In this document: piece after piece, positions 12,743 through 42,104 of the stretch
Position numbering within the stretch: position 1 is the first letter of the stretch
Layout: each line of letters begins with the position of its first letter
Assembly (NCBI GenBank): GCA_030584185.1
Contig: CP129495.1
Coordinates: 1,595,469-1,659,468, forward strand
DNA: 64,000 nucleotides
Source: Acidimicrobiia bacterium
GTDB lineage: Bacteria > Actinomycetota > Acidimicrobiia > Spongiisociales > UBA11373
Direction: 5' to 3'
Notes under the pieces: model-generated
Databases searched by the model: none
What the model saw: the letters and a program-made list of their open reading frames with translations, nothing else
Told to the model about the DNA's origin: nothing
Program-made: the position numbers and the translations under genes

Positions 12743-13135
12743 TCAGCCCTGGAGGGTTCGCAGGTAGGCGACTATGTCGTACAGGTCGGCCTCGGTCAGC
12801 GCCGGGTTGCCGCCCTTGGCCGGCATCGCCACACCGGTGGTGTTCTCCGGGTCGGAGGTGTCACGGCCGACGGTGACGAACGCCACCAGATCGGCATCGG
12901 ACATCCCGCCGATGAACTCGGAGTTCACGAACGGCTTGCCCAGGCCCTCGACACCGACCCCGCCCTCGCCATGGCAGGCGATGCAGGTCCCGTTGAACAG
13001 GGCCAGGCCGTTGGTGGCGTCCCCGGTGGCGGCGGCGGTCGTGGTGGTGGCCGCCGTGGTGTCGCCGCCGTCGCCTCCGCCGCATGCGGCGACTGCGATG
13101 GCGAGCGCCGCCAGGGCGATCATCGGTCGTCTCAT
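12743..13135 (-). CDS. Cytochrome c lipoprotein of the nos operon
   Basis: 130 residues from ATG 13135 (GGGAG upstream). The lipobox AVAAC is followed by a Thr/Ala linker, one haem-attachment site CIACH and a distal Met in VAMPAKGG, the layout of a monohaem class I cytochrome c. It is the last gene of the nos unit, 17 bases after nosL. In this context it is the likely electron donor to NosZ, tethered to the outer face of the membrane. Confidence 0.9.
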   Translation of the reverse strand: MRRPMIALAALAIAVAACGGGDGGDTTAATTTTAAATGDATNGLALFNGTCIACHGEGGVGVEGLGKPFVNSEFIGGMSDADLVAFVTVGRDTSDPENTTGVAMPAKGGNPALTEADLYDIVAYLRTLQG

Positions 13136-13152
13136 CTGTCTCCCTTTCGTGT

Positions 13153-13635
13153 TCATGGTGTCTGGTCGTGGGTGGAGTGGTCGTGGTCGGCCGGCATGGA
13201 GCCTGCAGTCAGCAGCAGATCGTCCCAGGTCATGACCTCGCCACCGAACTCGGTGGCGAAGCTCGTCGCCCGCTCCCGGGTGGAGAAGGCGGCTATGCCG
13301 TGGCCCATCGGGGTCACGATATCGGCGTCGTGGACGAACCAGGCCGTGGCCGCATCGAGCCACTCCGAGGTGTCGTGGTCGTGGACCCAGGCGGCGGTCT
13401 CCGAACCGAGCTCGCCCTGGCGCAGACCGTGGGCGAGCATGTCGCCGACGTCGTCGAAGGCCTTGTCCTCCCCTTCCACTTCGTAGGCGGCTGCGAACCG
13501 CTCCTCGGAGATGATCATCCCGCACTCGGTACAGACATCCCGTCCGTACACGATCTCGGGGGGTCGGCCGGCGCCGTCGTCGCCGCCGCAGGCGGTGAGA
13601 CCCAGCGCCAGCAGCAGCAGGAGAGCTCTTCTCAT
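13153..13635 (-). CDS. nosL: NosL copper-chaperone lipoprotein
   Basis: 160 residues. The lipobox LTAC is followed by the NosL signature CTECGMII (the Cys and Met residues bind Cu(I)) and a His-rich C-terminus (DHDHSTHD). NosL delivers copper to apo-NosZ for the CuZ centre. It overlaps the nosY stop by 4 bases, so it is part of the same mRNA. Confidence 0.93.
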   Translation of the reverse strand: MRRALLLLLALGLTACGGDDGAGRPPEIVYGRDVCTECGMIISEERFAAAYEVEGEDKAFDDVGDMLAHGLRQGELGSETAAWVHDHDTSEWLDAATAWFVHDADIVTPMGHGIAAFSTRERATSFATEFGGEVMTWDDLLLTAGSMPADHDHSTHDQTP

Positions 13636-14495
13636 ATGTCCTTTCCTCTCGTGAACCGGGCCCATGCCGCCGTCACCGGAAGCATCACCCACAGGACGAG
13701 CACCCCGATCAGGATCGGGTCGAGCGCATCGCCGAAGCGGTCGACTGCATAGGTCCCCGCCGGCCCGAGCACGTCGAGCGATCCCTGGAAAGAGGTGAGG
13801 GTGGCCAGCCGGAACGCCTCGACCGGATTGGCCGCCGCCGAGAAGAACAGGACCGACACCGGCATCCTGGTGGCGACGGCGGTGCCCATCAGCCCCAGGT
13901 CTCCGAGGAAGACCAGGCCCAGCCACAGGAACAGCGCCGAGCCCATCGCCACCCCCGACTTCCGGGTGAACGAGGAGACCAGCATCCCGAGTGCCAGCAT
14001 CCCGGCGGCGAGCACCCAGGAGAGGGCGGCGATGCGGGTGAAGGCGGCGGCGTCGGCCGCCCCGCCTCGCAGCCCGGTGACCAGCCCGGCGGCGCCGAAC
14101 CCGGCGGCGATCGTGGCGAACAGCGCCAGCACCAGCCCGAGGTAGGTGCCGAGGAATGCCTCGGTGCGGCTGATCGGGTGGGAGAGCAGGAACCGCAGCG
14201 TCCCCCGCTCCTGTTGGCCGGTGATGGCCTGGGCGCCGAGGGTGAGGCCCATCAGCGGGACGATCAGCTGGACCAGGGCGACCAGGGACGATGCGCTCCG
14301 GCCGAAGGCCCCGTATCCGGCGACGGTGGCGCCGGGAAGGGCCAGGTTGGCCAGGACCGCGGCCAGGCCGGCGAACGCCGCGGCGTACAGCCAGAACCAC
14401 CGGTTGCGGATGGCGTCGCGCAGCTCCTTGCGGGCGATCGTGCCCACCAGGGATGCCTCGAAGGCGGGCGGGGCAGCGCGCACGGCCGTGGTCAT
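13632..14495 (-). CDS. nosY: NosY-type ABC-2 permease
   Basis: 287 residues with about six membrane segments. The first cytoplasmic stretch contains IARKELRDAIRNRWFW, and the motif QQERGTLRFLLSHPISR is typical of NosY/ABC-2 permeases. It works with the NosF ATPase and NosD in maturation of the CuZ site. Start at ATG 14495, overlapping the nosF stop (ATGA). Confidence 0.93.
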   Translation of the reverse strand: MTTAVRAAPPAFEASLVGTIARKELRDAIRNRWFWLYAAAFAGLAAVLANLALPGATVAGYGAFGRSASSLVALVQLIVPLMGLTLGAQAITGQQERGTLRFLLSHPISRTEAFLGTYLGLVLALFATIAAGFGAAGLVTGLRGGAADAAAFTRIAALSWVLAAGMLALGMLVSSFTRKSGVAMGSALFLWLGLVFLGDLGLMGTAVATRMPVSVLFFSAAANPVEAFRLATLTSFQGSLDVLGPAGTYAVDRFGDALDPILIGVLVLWVMLPVTAAWARFTRGKDI

Positions 14496-15346
14496 CGCCA
14501 CACCTCCAGGTCGAGCACCGCGATCCCGGCGCCTTCGAGGGCGGCGACCGCCTTTCCCTTGGCCTCCGGAGGCAGGTCGACGAGCAGCCCGCGGCCGTTG
14601 AGGCGCGCCGTGTATCCGAGCGCCGCCAGGATCAGCGAGGCGGGCTCCACCGCCTCCGGGTCGAGGACCAGGTGGAGCCAGGAGCGCAGACCGAGCCTCT
14701 CCGAGAGCTCGTGAGGGGCACACTCGTCGACGGTGCGGCCCTCGTCCATCACCACCACCCGGTCGACGAGCATCGCCACCTCCTCGAGGTGATGCGACGT
14801 GATCACCAGCAGCCGATCCGGGCCCCTCAGGTCTTCGAGCAGGCGGACCGTCGACTCGCGCGAGGCGGCATCGAGGTTCGAGGTCGGCTCGTCGAGGAGC
14901 AGGACCGGCGGGTCGGGGAGCAGGGCGACGGCCAGTGCCAGGCGCTGGCGCATTCCGCCCGAGAGCGCCCCCACCCGCTTGTTGCGGTGCGGACCGAGCC
15001 CGACCCGCTCGACCGCCTCGGAGACGCCGGCGCCTTGCAGGCGGCGCAGTCCCGACGAGAAGGCGAGGGTGTCCTCGACGGTCAGGTCGTCGTAGAACCC
15101 CGGGCGCTGGGGCACATACCCGACGAGGGACCGGACCCGTTTTCCCTCGGATCGGGCGTCGAACCCGCCCACCTCGACCGTCCCCTCGTAGTGGAGGAAG
15201 CCGAGGATGCAGAGCAGCACGGTGGTCTTGCCGGCCCCGTTGGGCCCCCAGAGGGCGACGGTCGAGCCACCACCGACTTGCAGGTCGAACCCGTCGACGA
15301 CGGTCGACTTCCCGTAACGCTTGGTGAGCCCCTCGATCCGGATCAT
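14492..15346 (-). CDS. nosF: NosF ABC-transporter ATPase
   Basis: 284 residues. Walker A GPNGAGKTT, signature LSGGMRQRLA, Walker B LLLDEPTSNLD and an H-loop in ITSHHLEE are all present. It lies between nosD and nosY with 4-base overlaps, which fixes its identity as NosF. Confidence 0.94.
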   Translation of the reverse strand: MIRIEGLTKRYGKSTVVDGFDLQVGGGSTVALWGPNGAGKTTVLLCILGFLHYEGTVEVGGFDARSEGKRVRSLVGYVPQRPGFYDDLTVEDTLAFSSGLRRLQGAGVSEAVERVGLGPHRNKRVGALSGGMRQRLALAVALLPDPPVLLLDEPTSNLDAASRESTVRLLEDLRGPDRLLVITSHHLEEVAMLVDRVVVMDEGRTVDECAPHELSERLGLRSWLHLVLDPEAVEPASLILAALGYTARLNGRGLLVDLPPEAKGKAVAALEGAGIAVLDLEVWR

Positions 15347-33717: not shown

Positions 33718-34215
33718 CTACTCGCCCTCCTGCTCCGCCTCGTAGCGGCTGAGGGCGGTCAGGAACATGGCGAAGAGCAGCAGGGAGGCCAGCATCAGGG
33801 CCCCCGGCAGGATCCGCAGCTGGAAGGCGTTCAATCCTTCGACCAGCGTGGGGCGAAGGCCACGGGGCGAGTACAGGGTGTACAGCAGCCCGACGATCGC
33901 CAGGAACCCGAAGAACGCCGCTCCCGTGGTGAGGAAGGCGAGGCGCCGACCCAGGTTGGTGTAGTTGATGATGAAGATCGTTCCCCAGAACACCGCCAGC
34001 GACGAGATGGCGACGATGAGGCCCCGCACCAGCACGCCGGGGGCGGGGTTGCCGTCCGGTCCCACGTTGTTCTTGCCGACCAGGTTCTCGTAGGCGACGT
34101 CGAGCAGCGCCCGGAACTGGGGGATCATCGAGGCCAGCACCAGGACGGTCAGGGCCACCCCCAGCCACTCCAGCCGGGTGAGCCCCTGGTCGTCCTCGTG
34201 GATGCGGCGGATCAT
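33718..34215 (-). CDS. Membrane protein at the end of the bc-complex operon
   Basis: 165 residues from ATG 34215. About four hydrophobic segments (20-36, 64-84, 92-112 and 135-155); no haem or metal motif. It overlaps the upstream cytochrome gene by 4 bases (ATGA), so it is the last gene of the bc-complex transcript. Probably a small accessory subunit. Convergent with rex. Confidence 0.7.
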   Translation of the reverse strand: MIRRIHEDDQGLTRLEWLGVALTVLVLASMIPQFRALLDVAYENLVGKNNVGPDGNPAPGVLVRGLIVAISSLAVFWGTIFIINYTNLGRRLAFLTTGAAFFGFLAIVGLLYTLYSPRGLRPTLVEGLNAFQLRILPGALMLASLLLFAMFLTALSRYEAEQEGE

Positions 34216-35711
34216 GGCAGCGCCCTCTCCAGCCTGACTATCAGCATGATGTCCTCGGCGCTGAGCACTGCGCCGAACCCGGGCATCCAGCCGCGTCCGA
34301 TCCCATTGACGCCGTACGCCACGGCCTCGTCGGACCCCTTGACGATGAAGTCGTAGTGATCCTGCTCCACCGGGAACTGGGTGAGCGACCTGCCGCCGCC
34401 GAGGGCGGGGCCGAAGGCGCCCGAGCCGGCGGCCTTGGTGAACTGGAACCCAGCCGACCAGCCGGCGGTGTGGCACCGGGCGCAGTAGGAGTTGTACAGG
34501 CCGATGGCACGCCGGGCGTCGGTGACGTTGCCGTCGAATCCGGCGGCGGCGACAGCCTCGACGTCGAAGGCGTAGAGGCGCTCCTGTTGCGCCGTCTCGA
34601 GGAACTCGAGTCCGGTGGCGGCTGCGGCGAGCAGGTTCTCCAGGTTGGCCGTGGTGAGGCGAAGGTCGCGCTCGATCGAGTCGAACTCGGTGACCAGAGG
34701 CCCCAACAGGGTGAGATCGGGGATCGGTGTCGGTCCATCCATGGTGCTGTAGGCGTCGGTCGGGTCGAAGAAGGCGGCCTCGATCGCGGTGCGTGCGTCC
34801 GACGGTGGGGCGGCTGCCACCATCGCCGCCGTGAGCAGGTTGAGCTGGGCTTCGGCGAGGTCGCTGACACCGTCCCGGTCGCCATCGGCGGCGGTCCCGT
34901 CACACGGTGCCGCCACCACGGCTGCGCTGGCATCGGTGCAGGTCGCCGGGGAGGTGAGGATCTCGGCGAGCCGGTCGGGGAGGTCCTCGATCATTTCGTA
35001 CTGATGGGGAACGAGGCGCAGGGCGACGATGTCGGCCGCCTGTGTGGCCACGGCGGCGGCGACCGAGTCGTCGGCCCGGGCGATTCGGGCGATCTCGGCC
35101 GTCACCTTCTCGTCGGCCTTGGCCACGACCTCGGACTGGGGGATCTGGATCGACTCCAGGTAGGCGAGCAGCTCGTCGATCTGCTGGCTGTTGAGCGGCC
35201 CGCCGCCCTCGACACCCCAGGCCGGCATCGGGGTGCCGGGCCGCCCGTACACCAGCCAGAAGCGGGCCTCTTCCTCGGAGTATCGATAGAAGACATCGTT
35301 GACCGAGGGGGCCTCCCACGAGGTGCTCAACCCGCTGCGTCCTTCGATGTAGGGGGCTGCCCCGCCGCCGCCGTCGGCGCCGTGACAGCCCCCGCATCCG
35401 TACTCGATCCACCATTCGTGGCCGCGTTCTTCGGCGATGTGTTCGAACCTCTCGGCCGCCGCCGCCTGTCGGGTGCTCTCGTTGAGGTAGTAGATCGGCA
35501 GGACGACGGCCATCGCAGCCGTGGCGATCAGGGAGTAGAGCAGGATCTTGTCGAGGCGGCGGTTCTCCAACTCGTCGTCGGTGAGGTACGGCGACAGGTT
35601 CGGTGGCGGCGCCTGTCGGCGGTGGGCGACGCGCGTCTGGCGAACCAAGAAGGCGAGCCAGCCGACGACGAGGGCGGCGACCACGGCCAGCACGAAGGCG
35701 CCGAGGCCCAT
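34212..35711 (-). CDS. Membrane-anchored dihaem cytochrome c of the bc complex
   Basis: 499 residues. One N-terminal membrane helix (residues 3-22) and a second (about 57-76) are followed by two cytochrome c modules: CGGCH near residue 106, with TPMPAW for Met ligation, and CARCH near 418, with GWMPGF. Between them is an alpha-helical region of some 200 residues. This takes the place of cytochrome c1 (QcrC-like) and would pass electrons to other cytochromes or directly to NosZ or an oxidase. Confidence 0.88.
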   Translation of the reverse strand: MGLGAFVLAVVAALVVGWLAFLVRQTRVAHRRQAPPPNLSPYLTDDELENRRLDKILLYSLIATAAMAVVLPIYYLNESTRQAAAAERFEHIAEERGHEWWIEYGCGGCHGADGGGGAAPYIEGRSGLSTSWEAPSVNDVFYRYSEEEARFWLVYGRPGTPMPAWGVEGGGPLNSQQIDELLAYLESIQIPQSEVVAKADEKVTAEIARIARADDSVAAAVATQAADIVALRLVPHQYEMIEDLPDRLAEILTSPATCTDASAAVVAAPCDGTAADGDRDGVSDLAEAQLNLLTAAMVAAAPPSDARTAIEAAFFDPTDAYSTMDGPTPIPDLTLLGPLVTEFDSIERDLRLTTANLENLLAAAATGLEFLETAQQERLYAFDVEAVAAAGFDGNVTDARRAIGLYNSYCARCHTAGWSAGFQFTKAAGSGAFGPALGGGRSLTQFPVEQDHYDFIVKGSDEAVAYGVNGIGRGWMPGFGAVLSAEDIMLIVRLERALP

Positions 35712-35724
35712 CAGGAGTCCTTCC

Positions 35725-36543
35725 TCAAATGCACGACGGCCCCTGTGGGTACTCGGCCGTCTTCACCGTGGCCCGAGAGGTCTCGATCACCGTCCCGGTG
35801 TCGATGACCAGCTGGCCCGACTCGTCGACGCTCAGAGCGAACCGGTCGAGGTTGCGGGGAGCGGGCCCGTCCTCGTACTCGCCGTGGTAGTTGTACTTGG
35901 AGCCGTGGCAGGGGCACTCGAACCCCTGGGAGGATTCGCACTGGGGAACCCGGCAGCCCAGGTGTACGCAACGCTGCCACAGGGCCATCAGGCCGCCTTC
36001 GACCACCGGCAACCCGTCGAATGAGGAGCCCTCCATCTGCCCCTGGAACGGAACCAGGTACGCCTGAGCGGCCGGGAGGAACAGCGGGCTGACACGACCG
36101 TCGGGAAGGAACACCTGGGCGGCGAGATCGTCGAGCTTTCCGGCGATCACCTTGGAGCCGAAACCGCCTGCCTTCAACTTGGGCCACATGAAGCCGAGCG
36201 AGAAGATCCCCATCTGGGCCAGGAACAGGCCGAACACGCCGAGGATGCCCCGGTTGAAGAACTGGCGGCGGGTGACCCCGAACTCGTTCGGGTCCACCTC
36301 CATGCGCTCCTCGAGCGGGTCCACCGGCACCGGTTCTTCGGCCCCGGGGTCGGCTGGCTCCGGCACCGACACCGGCTGCCGGGCCCGACTCGCCTTGCGG
36401 TCGCGCCGCATCGCCTTGCGATCGAGACGGCCCGTGACCGGACCCGGGGCGCCGCCGCGGCGCGCCGCGATGCTGGCGACGGCCAGGCCGCCGATGAGGC
36501 CGATGGCGGCGAAGGCGAGGATGACGATCTGGGTGGCGCTCAT
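35725..36543 (-). CDS. Rieske iron-sulfur subunit of the bc complex
   Basis: 272 residues from ATG 36543. An N-terminal membrane segment (6-25) and an acidic linker precede VTRRQFFNRG, a Tat-like motif, and a second hydrophobic segment. The C-terminal Rieske fold carries CVHLGC, the intervening loop and CPCHGSKYNYHG, with both Cys-His pairs of the [2Fe-2S] cluster intact. It receives electrons from menaquinol. Confidence 0.92.
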   Translation of the reverse strand: MSATQIVILAFAAIGLIGGLAVASIAARRGGAPGPVTGRLDRKAMRRDRKASRARQPVSVPEPADPGAEEPVPVDPLEERMEVDPNEFGVTRRQFFNRGILGVFGLFLAQMGIFSLGFMWPKLKAGGFGSKVIAGKLDDLAAQVFLPDGRVSPLFLPAAQAYLVPFQGQMEGSSFDGLPVVEGGLMALWQRCVHLGCRVPQCESSQGFECPCHGSKYNYHGEYEDGPAPRNLDRFALSVDESGQLVIDTGTVIETSRATVKTAEYPQGPSCI

Positions 36544-37241
36544 AGGTCGAAGAAGATCCCGTCTCTCCATGGGAAGGTGAAGTTGAAGCCCTTCCCCCGG
36601 TAGAACGACCCGATGATGGTGAGGATGGCCGAGGCCACCACGAAGAAGGTGAACACCATGATGGCGAACTTGCGGTCGGCCGGCCTCGTGGAGCGGTTGC
36701 GGTCCACATAAGGGATGAGGGCCAGGCCGGCGAGGCCGAGACCGGGGATCAGCACTCCGGCGATCTGGGGATCGAAGTAGGAGAGCAGCTCCTGAAGGCC
36801 GAGGAAGTACCACGGTGCCTTCGACGGGTTGGGCTGGGCGTTGGGGTTGGCCAGTTCCAGCAACGGGGCGTCCTGGAAGATCGAGAAGACGATCAGCAGT
36901 CCGAGCACGACCAGCAGGGCGACGAATTCGATGGCCAGCAGGTGGGGCCAGACGTTCACCTTGTCGGTCGGCTCCCGCTTCACCTGTTGGATCGCCTTGG
37001 CCTTGACGACGGTGAGCATGCGCTGGGTGCGCACGCCTTCGGGGATGGCGGGAGCCGCCGGGGGGCGAGGCGGGGCGGCGGTGGCGGTGGCGGTGGCGGT
37101 GGACGCCGTCTCGCCAACCGCAGCGGGAGCCGGTGCGTCGCCGCCGGTCATCTCGGCCCAGACCTGTTCGAACGGCACGCCGGTGGCCTTGGCCTTCGCC
37201 TGGGCCGATCTCCGCAGCAGGTGTTCGGGAACGTTTGCCAT
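36540..37241 (-). CDS. Cytochrome b subunit IV-like (PetD type) with N-terminal extra domain
   Basis: 233 residues. The first 34 residues (VPEHLLRRSAQAKAKATG then EQVWAEMTGG) form a short helical domain not found in ordinary PetD. They closely resemble the start of the cytochrome c encoded at 41220. An Ala/Pro-rich linker follows, then three membrane segments with the subunit IV signature PNPSKAPWYFLGLQELL (quinol site). It overlaps the Rieske start (ATGA). Confidence 0.88.
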   Translation of the reverse strand: MANVPEHLLRRSAQAKAKATGVPFEQVWAEMTGGDAPAPAAVGETASTATATATAAPPRPPAAPAIPEGVRTQRMLTVVKAKAIQQVKREPTDKVNVWPHLLAIEFVALLVVLGLLIVFSIFQDAPLLELANPNAQPNPSKAPWYFLGLQELLSYFDPQIAGVLIPGLGLAGLALIPYVDRNRSTRPADRKFAIMVFTFFVVASAILTIIGSFYRGKGFNFTFPWRDGIFFDL

Positions 37242-37249
37242 GGTGCTCC

Positions 37250-38029
37250 TTACAACGGCCCCGAGATGCCGCCGTCCTTGCGGACCCGCCAGAAGTGCAC
37301 GGCCATGAAGATGACGATGAGAAACGGCAGCGCCAGCACGTGCAACACGTAGAAGCGCAGCAGGGTGGGTGCGCCCACCTGGATCCCTCCGAGCAGGACG
37401 AACGAGACCTGCTCGCCGAACACCGGGGTGTATCCGCCCATGTTGGTGCCGACGGTCACCGCCCACAGCGCCAGCTGGTCCCAGGGCAGCAGGTACCCGG
37501 TGAATGAGAGGAGGAGGGTGAGGAACAGCAGGATGACGCCGACCACCCAGTTGAACTCACGCGGCGGCTTGTAGGCGCCGTGATAGAAGACCCGGGTCAT
37601 GTGCAGGAACACGGTGATCACCATCAGGTGGGCGCCCCAACGATGCAGGTTGCGTACCAGCTGCCCGAAGGCGATGTCGGTGGAGAGGGCGGCGATGTCG
37701 GGGTACGCCTGCTCGGCCGACGGCGTGTAATAGAACATGAGGAAGATGCCGGTGATCGTCAGCACGATGAACAAGAAGAAGGACAACCCGCCGAGACACA
37801 GCGTGTAGGAGAGGCGGACCCCGTGGCGCTTCACCTTCACCGGGTGGAGGTGGTACAGGAGGTTGTTCATGATGACGTACGAGCGGTTCCGGGGGCTGTC
37901 CGAGTAGCCCTTGCGGAAGGGAGAACCGGGCCGGAACAGCGACTCCCACGCCTCGGAGCCGCGGATGCGGTCGCCGAGGCCGGAGATGCGATCTCCCAGC
38001 GTCCTCTTTCCTTCTCCGTTGCTGGCCAC
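37250..38029 (-). CDS. Cytochrome b6-type subunit of the bc complex
   Basis: 259 residues, four membrane helices. The bis-histidine haem ligands are seen as RNLHRWGAH and [11 protein letters not shown] on one side and [10 protein letters not shown] and [11 protein letters not shown] on the other, with the Qo loop [11 protein letters not shown]. It ends in GISGPL like b6. With the next gene (subunit IV) it makes a split cytochrome b of the b6f kind. The N-terminal 60 residues are soluble. 8-base gap to the next gene. Confidence 0.92.
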
Positions 38030-38088: not shown

Positions 38089-38538
38089 CTAGAACCGCAT
38101 CCCGTAGGCGTAGCCGTTCTTGTGGTCGCGCTGGCCGCTGTCCACCTCCCACGGTGTGGCCACGCCTCGGGCGTCGGCCTGGGCGGCCACGGAGCCGTCG
38201 TACTTGCCCAGCGAGATGACCCCGGTGGGGCACCGGTCCACGCACAAGGCGCACCGCGTGCACTCGTCCTCGTCCACGACGAAGAAACCCAGGTTGGCGG
38301 CGCTGTCCCTGGGATCCCCCACGTTTGCCGCCTCGGCGATGGCGTCGATGGAGAGGTAGTGGATGCACTTCCACGGGCAGATGTCGACGCACCCCTCGCA
38401 GAGGATGCACTCGACCTGGTCGATGTGAAGGAATTGCTTCGGCTTCACGGCCGCCGTCAGATACTCGCCCTCGACCAGGGTCAGCTGGTAGTCGTCGCGA
38501 AACGGTGGGGTCTCGAACCAGACCTCGGCGCGTGCCAC
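38089..38538 (-). CDS. Dicluster [4Fe-4S] ferredoxin of the bc operon
   Basis: 149 residues from GTG 38538, one base after the upstream stop. Two cluster motifs: CILCEGCVDICPWKC and CTRCALCVDRCPTG, each CxxCxxCxxxCP-like. The first is preceded by KPKQFLHIDQ. It has no signal peptide, so it is cytoplasmic. Because it is co-transcribed with cytochrome b it may dock on the cytoplasmic side and couple ferredoxin to the quinone pool. Confidence 0.9.
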   Translation of the reverse strand: MARAEVWFETPPFRDDYQLTLVEGEYLTAAVKPKQFLHIDQVECILCEGCVDICPWKCIHYLSIDAIAEAANVGDPRDSAANLGFFVVDEDECTRCALCVDRCPTGVISLGKYDGSVAAQADARGVATPWEVDSGQRDHKNGYAYGMRF

Positions 38539-38539
38539 C

Positions 38540-39157
38540 TCAGCCCCTTCCCTTGACCACGGGGCGGCCGTACACCGAAGAGCCCGGCGTCGCCGCCTGG
38601 CCGGCACGCTTCGACCGCTCTTGTAGTTGGTAGGCGCCGACCGCCACCACGATGAGCATGGTGGTGGAGTAGCCGGCGGCGATCATGTCCTTGAGTGCCC
38701 CGTAGGAGATGCTCACCTCGTTGTTGAGCATCAGCCACTTGGGGATGGTGAGGAAGGTCTTCTGCTGGGACCAGTCGAGCGTGCCCTGGGCGAGACCGAG
38801 GAACTGATTGGGGACGATCCCGAAGAGGATCAACATCTCCAGCGTGAACAGGAAGGCGGCGACCGTCGCCAGCGCCCAGGTGAGCCGGCGTCCGTAGATC
38901 CAACCCATGATCGCTCCGCCGAGGGCGATCTGTGAGCCGAGGAAGGCGATCAGCTGACCCGAAGTGGGGATCACCCAGCAGGTGGCCGGGTCGTTCTCGA
39001 AGAAGGCACAGCGCGGGATCCAGGAGTAGATGTCTCGGCCCACGGCATCCTGTGCGGCAAGCCCGGTGAAGTGGGCGATCAGCACGCCGATGGTGAAGAG
39101 GGCGGCGCCGATGGCAATCCCGAGGATGCCGATCCGCCGCCTCTTGTCTTCCGTCAC
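38540..39157 (-). CDS. Membrane protein, first gene of the bc-complex operon
   Basis: 205 residues, four membrane segments (about 10-30, 65-85, 91-113 and 160-178). External loop with Cys at CAFFENDPATCW; a conserved-looking segment LTIPKWLMLNNEVSISYGAL precedes the last helix. No haem motif or known family. Its place directly before the ferredoxin gene suggests it anchors ferredoxin to the bc complex. Confidence 0.78.
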   Translation of the reverse strand: MTEDKRRRIGILGIAIGAALFTIGVLIAHFTGLAAQDAVGRDIYSWIPRCAFFENDPATCWVIPTSGQLIAFLGSQIALGGAIMGWIYGRRLTWALATVAAFLFTLEMLILFGIVPNQFLGLAQGTLDWSQQKTFLTIPKWLMLNNEVSISYGALKDMIAAGYSTTMLIVVAVGAYQLQERSKRAGQAATPGSSVYGRPVVKGRG

Positions 39158-39327: not shown

Positions 39328-41223
39328 GTGCCAGCGCAGGAGACCGGTAGCGGATTGCCCGAAGCTTCCGCACGCTTGACTTCGGCTCTCGTCAGGTCGT
39401 GCTTCGTCGCCGCAGCGGCGTTCCTGATCATCGGGCTCGCCCTCTACGGCCTGGCCGCCACCCAGCTCGCCTGGCCCGGGGTCTTCGAGGGTTCGGCGAA
39501 CCTCAGCTACGGGCGGTTGCTGCCTGCGGGCTCGGCCGCTCTCGTCTTCGGCTGGCTCACCCTTGCCCTGCTCGGAGTGTCGTTCCATGCGGTCCCGAGG
39601 ATGGTGGACGCCAGGCTTCGCTCTCCGCTCGCCGCCATCGGCGCCACCGGGCTCATTGCGGTCGCCACCGCCGCCGGAGTGGGGGCGATCCTTCTCGGTG
39701 ACGGTGAAGGCGGACGGTGGCTGGAGTTCCCGGCGGTGGTCGACGCCGCCCTTTTCGCCGGCTGCCTCGGCGTCGCCGCCCTACTGGTGGCCACCGTGCG
39801 GGACGGGTCGGGGGCGGGGCTGCCGGTCGCCGGCTGGTACCTGACCGCCGCACCGGTGTGGCTGTTCCTCACCGTGGCCGTGGCGGCCCTTCCGGCGCTC
39901 GATGGGCTTCCCGGCGAGATCCAGTCGGGGTTCGTCGGATCGGCCCTCTGGGGGCTGTGGGCCGGAGCGGCCGGCATCGGCGTCGCCTACTACCTCTCCG
40001 GACGGCTGTTACCCGATGCCACTTTCCACGAGAGCCTGGGACGAATCGGGTTCTGGTCCCTCTCCCTCACATGGCTGTGGACGGCGGGACGGACCCTTCA
40101 GTTCGCTCCCACCCCCGACTGGGTGGAGACGATCCCGGTGGTCTTCGGCGCCGGGCTGGTCGTCGCCGTGGTGACCGTGGTGGCCGACTTCGCCATGGCC
40201 TGGCGGGGGAGACGGGGTGAAGTCGCCGCCGCGCCTGCCCTGCGCATGGTCGGCGTCGGTCTGGTCTTCTTGCTCACCGGCGTGATCGCTGCGGTGGTGG
40301 CCTCGTTGCGATCGGTGGCGTCGGTGCTGCGCTTCACGCCCTGGGAGTCGGGCGTGGAGGTGATGCTGTTGCTCGGAGCCTTCACGATGTTCGCCATGGC
40401 CGCGGTGATCCACGTCGCCTCCGCAACCCGGGGCAAGGAGTGGGGCCGATCCTGGGGCAGGCTGGCACTGTGGCCGGTCGTGGCCGGAGTCGTCATCGCC
40501 GCCGGCAGCCGCTTCGTCGCCGGAGTGCAGCAGGGCTTCGGATGGCTCTCCGGGGTGCAGTCGGGTTCCTGGGCCAACCTGGGCGACGGGTTCGAGGTGT
40601 CGGTGGTGCCACTGCAGGGTGCCAACGCCGCTCAGGCAGTGGGCATCGCCCTGGTTCTGATCGGAGCGACGGCATTCGCGGTGCGCCTGGGGAGCCTCGC
40701 CGGAGGTGGGGGTGTCACCGAATCGGTTCGGCCCGCTGCGGGAGCGGTGGCGCCCGTCACCGGCCTGCTGCGCGTCGCCGTCGCCATCTTCCTCTTGGGG
40801 GCAGTCGGAGCGTTCGCCCTCCCCGCCGTCGACGCCGATGCCGGCCCCACCGAGCTCGCCGAGACCAGCCGCGATCTCGCCGACGACGCCCAGGCCGACC
40901 TGGGGCGCCAGATCTACCTCGCCGAAGGCTGCTGGCTGTGCCACACCCAGCAGGTGCGCCAGGTGGTGACCGACGTCGGGCTGGGCCCGGTGACCCTGGC
41001 CGGTGACCTGGCCTTCGATCCGGTGGGGGTTGCCGGGTACGCCCGCGTCGGTCCCGATCTGGCCCATGCCGGCGTCAGGCCCAACACCAACGATGTCGCC
41101 TTCCTGAGGCGCCACCTGGCCGATCCGCGTGATCAGCGCCCGTGGTCGACGATGCCCTCATACCGGCACCTCAGTGCCGACGAGATGAACGCCCTTGCCG
41201 CCTACGTCGCGGGATTGGAGTGA
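39328..41223 (+). CDS. CcoN-like protein lacking haem and copper ligands, fused to a CcoO-like cytochrome c
   Basis: 631 residues from GTG 39328 (GGAGGGA upstream). Residues 25-510 contain about 12 membrane helices with the layout of cbb3 oxidase subunit I. YGRLLPAGS (61-69) is at the place of YGRLRPLHT, WGLWAG (208-213) at the place of YGHNAV, and GRTLQFAPTPDW (254-265) at the place of the GPHHL..ALPDW segment. In each, the histidine ligands are absent, and the late H-x-H segment is also missing (VEVMLLLG). Residues 533-631 are CcoO-like: C535-WLC-H539, RVGPDLAHAG and Met609 in STMPSY. So only the cytochrome c part can bind haem. Confidence 0.85.
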   Translation: MPAQETGSGLPEASARLTSALVRSCFVAAAAFLIIGLALYGLAATQLAWPGVFEGSANLSYGRLLPAGSAALVFGWLTLALLGVSFHAVPRMVDARLRSPLAAIGATGLIAVATAAGVGAILLGDGEGGRWLEFPAVVDAALFAGCLGVAALLVATVRDGSGAGLPVAGWYLTAAPVWLFLTVAVAALPALDGLPGEIQSGFVGSALWGLWAGAAGIGVAYYLSGRLLPDATFHESLGRIGFWSLSLTWLWTAGRTLQFAPTPDWVETIPVVFGAGLVVAVVTVVADFAMAWRGRRGEVAAAPALRMVGVGLVFLLTGVIAAVVASLRSVASVLRFTPWESGVEVMLLLGAFTMFAMAAVIHVASATRGKEWGRSWGRLALWPVVAGVVIAAGSRFVAGVQQGFGWLSGVQSGSWANLGDGFEVSVVPLQGANAAQAVGIALVLIGATAFAVRLGSLAGGGGVTESVRPAAGAVAPVTGLLRVAVAIFLLGAVGAFALPAVDADAGPTELAETSRDLADDAQADLGRQIYLAEGCWLCHTQQVRQVVTDVGLGPVTLAGDLAFDPVGVAGYARVGPDLAHAGVRPNTNDVAFLRRHLADPRDQRPWSTMPSYRHLSADEMNALAAYVAGLE

Positions 41224-42104
41224 CCTTGGACGAGCTGATCGCCGCCGCCGCAGCAGCCACCGGGATGCCCGAGAGCATGGTCAAGCGTTCCGCCGCCGCC
41301 CGGGCCAAGGCGCAGGGAACCACCGTCGAGGCCGTCCTCGCCGAATGGGCCGGCGTGCCGGTACCCGAAGGAGCCGCCTCCGCCGCTCCGGCCGGCGAGA
41401 AGGCTCCCGCCGACGAGGCCGAGGCGGCCGGGGAAACCGGCTCCGGTTTCGAAGTGGAGGTGAAGGGCGAAGCCCCGCCGGCGTCCAAGGAGCCGGCACC
41501 TGCTGCCGAGGAGCCTCGGGATGAGCCTGCCGAGGACCTTGTCGTGCCGGCCGGAGCCATCCCCAGATGGCTGGCCGCCCTCTTCGTGGTGGTGCCGGCG
41601 ATGGCGCTCGCCTACCTGGCCTTCTTCCCCAACGGGCCCAACTGTGGCGATGCCGGGCTGCTGGCGATCGATCCGGTCTCGGGCGAGGCTGTGAACTGCG
41701 ACGGCAGCGCCTTCGGATCCAGCGACAAGGACTTCTTCGCCATCGGCCAGGAGGTCTACACCTCGGCAGGATGCACCGCCTGTCACGGAGCCACCGGTGG
41801 CGGCGCCGGCACCTTCCCGGCGTTCACCGGCGGGGCCCTGCTCACGACCTTCCCCGGTGGGTACTGCTCGGATCAGACCGAGTGGATCCGGCTGGGGTCG
41901 ATCGGATGGCCCGAGGAGACCTACGGCGCCCCGGGCAAGCCGGTGGGCGGTTCGGGAAGCGCCATGCCGGGTTTCGGGAGCACACTCAGCGACGAGGAGC
42001 TGGCAGCGGTGGCCCTGTACGAGCGGGTGGCCTTCGGGGGCGAGGACCTGGAAGCGGCCGAGGCCGACTGTTTCGCCACCGCAGAAGCCGCTGCCGGGGA
42101 CTGA
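41220..42104 (+). CDS. Membrane-anchored monohaem cytochrome c with N-terminal helical domain
   Basis: 294 residues from GTG 41220, overlapping the upstream gene by 4 bases (GTGA). The first 45 residues (MPESMVKRSAAARAKAQG, then EAVLAEWAGV) match the N-terminal domain of the PetD-like protein. A long acidic linker, one membrane helix (about 119-140) and a cytochrome c domain with CTACH and distal Met in AMPGFG follow. The helical domain is on the cytoplasmic side. Probably a partner of the CcoN-CcoO fusion. Confidence 0.88.
   Translation: MTLDELIAAAAAATGMPESMVKRSAAARAKAQGTTVEAVLAEWAGVPVPEGAASAAPAGEKAPADEAEAAGETGSGFEVEVKGEAPPASKEPAPAAEEPRDEPAEDLVVPAGAIPRWLAALFVVVPAMALAYLAFFPNGPNCGDAGLLAIDPVSGEAVNCDGSAFGSSDKDFFAIGQEVYTSAGCTACHGATGGGAGTFPAFTGGALLTTFPGGYCSDQTEWIRLGSIGWPEETYGAPGKPVGGSGSAMPGFGSTLSDEELAAVALYERVAFGGEDLEAAEADCFATAEAAAGD

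Follow-up and report, generated by a model that had tools for sequence, protein, structure and literature searches.

The ligand histidines are usually regarded as the defining feature of haem-copper oxidase subunit I. In CcoN, the subunit I of cbb3 oxidases (3mk7 numbering), His60 and His347 hold the low-spin haem b, His345 holds haem b3, His207, His257 and His258 hold CuB, and Tyr251 is the active-site tyrosine. The locus described here encodes a protein, gene H, that resembles cbb3 CcoN-CcoO (3mk7) and the CcoNO fusions (PRK14485) in its subunit I fold, its CcoO cytochrome and its N-to-O order, but differs from them in that it lacks all six histidines and the tyrosine, scores far under the equivalog cut-offs and lies beside a bc/ferredoxin operon.

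Three described reductase-oxidase pairings are also close. The obligate III2-IV2 complexes of Mycobacterium and Corynebacterium (6adq, 6hwh) have a dihaem cytochrome in the bc operon and, between the bc complex and an A-type oxidase, a cytochrome c relay that is fixed in the membrane; our module has the first and, as gene linkage suggests, would have the second. The bc1-cbb3 supercomplexes of Rhodobacter and Pseudomonas (6xkw, 8smr) join a CcoN-fold protein to a bc complex, in Rhodobacter also with an anchored cytochrome c, but there CcoN is the oxidase, whereas gene H has no active site. In the ACIII-cbb3 operon of Verrucomicrobiota, a co-location known for Methylacidiphilum (PMC6688271), ccoN likewise stands beside a quinol:cytochrome c reductase, and some Verrucomicrobiota copies are degenerate too; however, that reductase is ACIII, not bc, and the origin is independent (see below).

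Gene H lies within the window (the whole 64,000-nucleotide stretch that was analysed), starts with GTG and runs for 631 residues with no internal stop. Its features are:

39328..41223, plus strand: gene H, a ligand-less CcoN-like membrane protein with a fused CcoO-like mono-haem cytochrome c (open reading frame, Pfam COX1 and FixO, AlphaFold)
39367..40725, plus strand: residues 14-466, a CcoN-fold domain lacking ligands for haem and copper (structure alignment to 3mk7, dN/dS)
40756..41220, plus strand: CcoO-like domain, a transmembrane helix (477-502) followed by cytochrome c (FixO)
40930-40944, plus strand: CxxCH, residues 535-539
41152-41154, plus strand: axial Met609

Residues 22-407 match Pfam COX1 (E 1.8e-25, above the Pfam cut-off) and residues 526-622 match FixO (PF02433, E 2.4e-17, 63.6 bits against a cut-off of 29.6). 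Among PDB sequences the nearest are cbb3 chains: CcoN 3mk7_A at E 4.6e-15 and CcoO chains at about 1e-10. The two NCBIfam equivalogs are both missed by a wide margin, with 76 bits against 583 for CcoN (TIGR00780) and 65 bits against 200 for CcoO (TIGR00781). The C-terminal part nevertheless belongs to CcoO/FixO by its profile, its CxxCH and its axial Met, the latter two being invariant in all 42 homologues aligned, so that an earlier note on this DNA was right to call this domain an intact CcoO-like cytochrome.

An AlphaFold2 model of gene H built on the 42 homologues (pLDDT 90.3, pTM 0.93) superposes on 3mk7 CcoN with Z 45.6 and an rmsd of 1.8 Å over 448 residues (VIA-align), and Foldseek gives E 1e-17 to CcoN chains; nitric oxide reductase (Z 39) and the aa3-type oxidases (about 33) match less well. 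The modelled protein thus has the 12-helix subunit I fold of the haem-copper oxidases, with CcoN closest. This bears out the cbb3 subunit I layout that the earlier note had read from the sequence, and it disposes of the doubt raised there that the fold might lie outside this family.

Ligand positions were read from the alignment of gene H to 3mk7. All are substituted:

39529..39531, plus strand: Gly68 in place of the low-spin haem b ligand His60 (PLHT to PAGS)
39940..39942, plus strand: Ser205 in place of the CuB ligand His207 (YGHN to VGSA)
40072..40074, plus strand: Trp249 in place of the active-site Tyr251 (Trp in 34 of 42 homologues)
40090..40095, plus strand: Arg255-Thr256 in place of the CuB ligands His257-His258 (GPHHL to GRTLQ)
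40354..40362, plus strand: Val343 in place of the haem b3 ligand His345 and Val345 in place of the haem b ligand His347 (GHVH to GVEV)

The replacements proposed earlier hold for PAGS, GRTLQ and the late HxH; at YGHN the segment given, WGLWAG, lies a few residues further on and the aligned residues are VGSA. Three histidines were said to remain in the membrane part, none of them at a ligand position, and indeed these are His87, His234 and His362, which are kept in only 24%, 17% and 43% of the 42 aligned sequences. Nor is gene H a NorB, as histidines equivalent to the haem b/b3 and FeB ligands are absent.

Might the CcoN half still hold a single b haem, by ligands that are unusual or have shifted, and carry electrons across the membrane? 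The fold is intact, and a Verrucomicrobiota protein discussed below (L214) keeps His60 and His347 while its CuB/b3 site is lost, such that a stage with haem b only can exist. However, across the 42 fused homologues the CcoN part shows not one conserved His, Met or Cys column, and none of these proteins has a His at either low-spin haem b position (His60, His347). The best His column reaches 69% of them and is Ala in gene H, and the sites that once held ligands are freely variable (Ala, Ser, Val, Leu and others). Shifted ligands, which the earlier note had named as a possible refutation, were therefore rejected, and we regard b-haem binding as very improbable. From the sequences, loss of b haem and copper from gene H is near certain. 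Sequence, structure model and family-wide loss together show a CcoN half that, lacking ligands for a b haem or copper, would be incapable of reducing oxygen. Since gene H has a haem-copper oxidase fold but none of the ligands that define CcoN, it is not a cbb3 oxidase and should not be called one.

The loss is not peculiar to this genome. A search of 296 Acidimicrobiia genomes gave matches in 117. A scan of named genomes yielded Acidimicrobiia metagenome-assembled genomes and also true CcoNO proteins, of Massilia, Paracoccus, Thioclava, Tumebacillus, Planctomycetota and others, which were used as controls. In the alignment of 113 CcoN-like proteins, all six ligand histidines are missing from 77 and present in 31, leaving three with one incidental His and two, from Verrucomicrobiaceae, with two. 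Chance or an alignment artefact was rejected on this near absence of intermediates between the 0/6 class and the canonical 6/6 class, and on the 1.8 Å fit of the model to CcoN. Two Actinomycetota genomes of 1.3-1.4 Mb (G326 and G312, loci L159 and L160) carry an intact CcoN with all six histidines; their match to the fused model crosses one stop codon, and they probably have separate ccoN and ccoO genes. In other families of gene H's order the CcoN and CcoO halves are separate adjoining genes, and in most relatives a c-type cytochrome is fused to or adjacent to the ligand-less CcoN.

The CcoN part of the family is under purifying selection, with dN/dS of 0.08-0.17 in 14 comparisons of related genes, and the cytochrome part gives similar values. 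A functionless, decaying cbb3 remnant would account for the disappearance of every catalytic residue and for the families that have no copy of the gene. It is contradicted by the dN/dS values, and the frame is open class-wide, the cytochrome motif is kept in every aligned homologue and synteny is preserved. We thus rejected pseudogene status, and gene H can hardly be such a remnant.

On the opposite strand from gene H run seven genes, A-G, and gene I follows it:

41217..42104, plus strand: gene I, a membrane-anchored mono-haem cytochrome c with weak CcoP/FixP resemblance (Cytochrom_C 1.9e-7; ccoP 6.8e-5, below cut-off)
38540..39157, minus strand: gene G, a small membrane protein of unassigned family at the head of the divergent operon (syntenic in the class)
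38089..38607, minus strand: gene F, a 2x[4Fe-4S] ferredoxin-like protein (Fer4, E 3.7e-11)
37250..38029, minus strand: gene E, the N-terminal (b6) half of cytochrome b, ExtP-like (Cytochrome_B, E 4e-48; ExtP, 1e-91)
36540..37466, minus strand: gene D, the C-terminal (subunit IV) half of cytochrome b (Cytochrom_B_C, E 6.2e-10), whose true start is probably inside the listed open reading frame
35725..36618, minus strand: gene C, a Rieske iron-sulphur protein (Rieske, E 6.3e-9)
34212..35711, minus strand: gene B, a dihaem cytochrome c (Cytochrome_CBB3, 5.4e-13)
33718..34476, minus strand: gene A, a small membrane protein and last gene of the operon (syntenic), for which no Pfam family was found

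The membrane protein of gene G is conserved and carries YGRPL as a C-terminal motif; it has no Pfam match above cut-off, and its model (pLDDT 86) gave no fold match. Gene B has two CxxCH motifs in every copy found (28 loci checked), and gene E is present in 244 of the 296 class genomes. Gene F is a fixed member of the operon beside the ExtP-like cytochrome b, which suggests that the bc complex may meet a ferredoxin. We know of no counterpart in the Mycobacterium and Corynebacterium III2-IV2 complexes of the split cytochrome b, of the ferredoxin-like F, of G or of a CcoN-fold scaffold.

The earlier note had placed gene H divergent from a bc operon and had asked whether related genomes share the His loss and the neighbours. 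They do. Among the ligand-less Acidimicrobiia loci whose flanks are long enough, nearly all have the seven-gene operon divergent from H, including those of Actinomarina-like genomes of about 1 Mb, and gene I follows H in nearly all loci. No locus with an intact CcoN has the A-G arrangement. The exceptions are L066 (below) and L049/L109 and L113, where H lies some kb from the operon. In two genomes from other Actinomycetota classes (L204, L205), H is on a stretch with E and F. Several class families keep A-G and I but have no H (L182-L201), and in 15 of 20 such loci G and I are at most 384 bp apart. This rejects H as a strict requirement of the bc module, and it follows that the route from bc to caa3 does not strictly depend on it. 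H is an accessory of the module, absent from some lineages.

Where would the electrons go? The genome has one A-type caa3 oxidase (COX1 at C1:1066017-1067351), in which CoxB bears a domain of cytochrome c. Cytochrome bd is absent from the genome. Elsewhere in this genome (C1 ~641,200-642,500; L004:1024-2229, minus strand) is a 401-residue membrane protein with an HMHLNLVG motif and a partial, weak COX1 match (E 5e-5, below cut-off). Apart from L066, from another family of the class, none of the Acidimicrobiia loci examined has oxidase genes beside H. In L066 a ligand-less CcoN (13093-15219, minus strand) is fused to a cupredoxin instead of CcoO (Cupredoxin_1, E 7e-9) and lies in a run with ctaC (CoxB with CxxCH), ctaD, ctaE, ctaF, ctaG, a CcoO-like gene and gene I, adjoining ResB and a cytochrome c assembly gene.

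The scaffold might instead serve another path, for example by delivering electrons of the bc complex, or of the ferredoxin-like F, to an acceptor that is anaerobic or periplasmic. The best-scoring matches of the cytochrome b halves are ExtP/ExtQ of selenite/tellurite operons, the operon includes a 2x[4Fe-4S] protein, and no oxidase is beside H in the window. Against this stand the operons in which a pseudo-CcoN occurs with caa3 genes, in L066 and in three Verrucomicrobiota loci, and the A-type COX1 in 74 of 75 near-complete H-bearing genomes. Since COX1 is present in 275 of the 296 class genomes, with or without H, that co-occurrence is not specific; we rejected it as proof of coupling, and the 74/75 figure counts as consistency only. 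Moreover, in one genus (g5) of the window's own family, H, cytochrome b E and COX1 are absent together. On balance we think a non-caa3 destination unlikely.

Degenerate CcoN proteins also occur outside Actinomycetota. In the ActABCDEF-ccoNOP operons of Verrucomicrobiota, CcoN is intact in L254-L257 and degenerate in L242-L253, and caa3 genes directly follow the operon in L141, L152 and L242. The protein of L243, like that of L214, keeps both low-spin haem b ligands with the CuB/b3 site lost, and those of L141 and L152 keep His60 and His207. In the others one ligand survives or none does, and several have Gln where a His used to be. A-type COX1 was found in all 14 of the degenerate-CcoN Verrucomicrobiota genomes tested.

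In a CcoN tree computed with the ligand columns removed, the ligand-less Actinomycetota proteins form one side of a branch (SH-aLRT 95), while the degenerate Verrucomicrobiota proteins group with the intact, ACIII-linked Verrucomicrobiota clade (support 99-100). A tree with one common origin of all degenerate CcoN was rejected (log-likelihood difference 168, AU p 1e-35), and therefore ligands were lost at least twice, independently in Actinomycetota and in Verrucomicrobiota. By their sequences, the Verrucomicrobiota proteins show what would be the steps of such a loss: six of six histidines, then the low-spin haem ligands only, then two, one and none.

We propose that gene H is a retired cbb3 core, a haem-free scaffold with a periplasmic cytochrome relay between a quinol:cytochrome c reductase and caa3, a reading that we hold to be fairly probable on the sequences and the model. 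Selection would retain the CcoN half as a scaffold in the membrane, holding the fused CcoO-like c-haem in position at the outer face, where the anchored cytochrome of gene I may lie next to it. The bc complex (A-G) would oxidize menaquinol and pass electrons via the dihaem cytochrome B to the haems of H and I, and from there to the cytochrome c domain (CoxB) of caa3, whose genes lie at another place in the genome. We infer this path, and with it the relay role of H, from operon structure and established III-IV chemistry. Such a fixed relay or supercomplex adaptor would take the place of a diffusing soluble cytochrome c; a fixed supercomplex is possible, as in Mycobacterium, whose III-IV supercomplex has been reviewed (PMC8361435). 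A non-electron role for the CcoN half, as an assembly factor, a proton or lipid pathway or an oxygen-independent regulator of the bc complex, would also suit a large ligand-less membrane domain that is under selection and adjoins a bc operon; yet the c-type cytochrome fused or adjacent in most relatives, and the cupredoxin in L066, point to electron transfer and make such a role improbable.

The earlier note had read gene H as a pseudo-oxidase acting as a scaffold or electron conduit. Its observation is confirmed and its interpretation is supported in its main lines, best by purifying selection, the intact cytochrome and the operons shared with caa3 genes, which occur in one Acidimicrobiia genome as well as in Verrucomicrobiota. 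To it we add the class-wide family, the independent recurrence in Verrucomicrobiota and the class families without H. More broadly, we lean, with somewhat better than even confidence, to the view that in two phyla or more a terminal oxidase has been retired to serve as an electron-relay adaptor. A cbb3 oxidase that was originally fed directly by its reductase, which is bc in Actinomycetota and ACIII in Verrucomicrobiota, would have lost its oxygen site and then its haems, while its CcoN-CcoO-CcoP body kept its place between that reductase and caa3.

A pseudo-oxidase respiratory module of this kind is apparently undescribed in the searchable literature. We found no description of a ligand-less CcoN, in Acidimicrobiia or elsewhere, in open-licence literature, which leaves absence unproven, nor any of a degenerate ACIII-linked CcoN in the literature found. 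The parts seen of a UBA5794 genome paper give generic complexes III and IV only (PMC12008989).

The family is large and conserved, and it has the subunit I fold but not a single ligand. Its existence predicts that uncultured and marine Actinomycetota join reductase to oxidase by a new type of link, and COX1 or cbb3 annotations in such genomes do not mean a high-affinity oxidase. The Verrucomicrobiota copies, for their part, offer an evolutionary series along which an oxidase can be followed as it loses its active site step by step.
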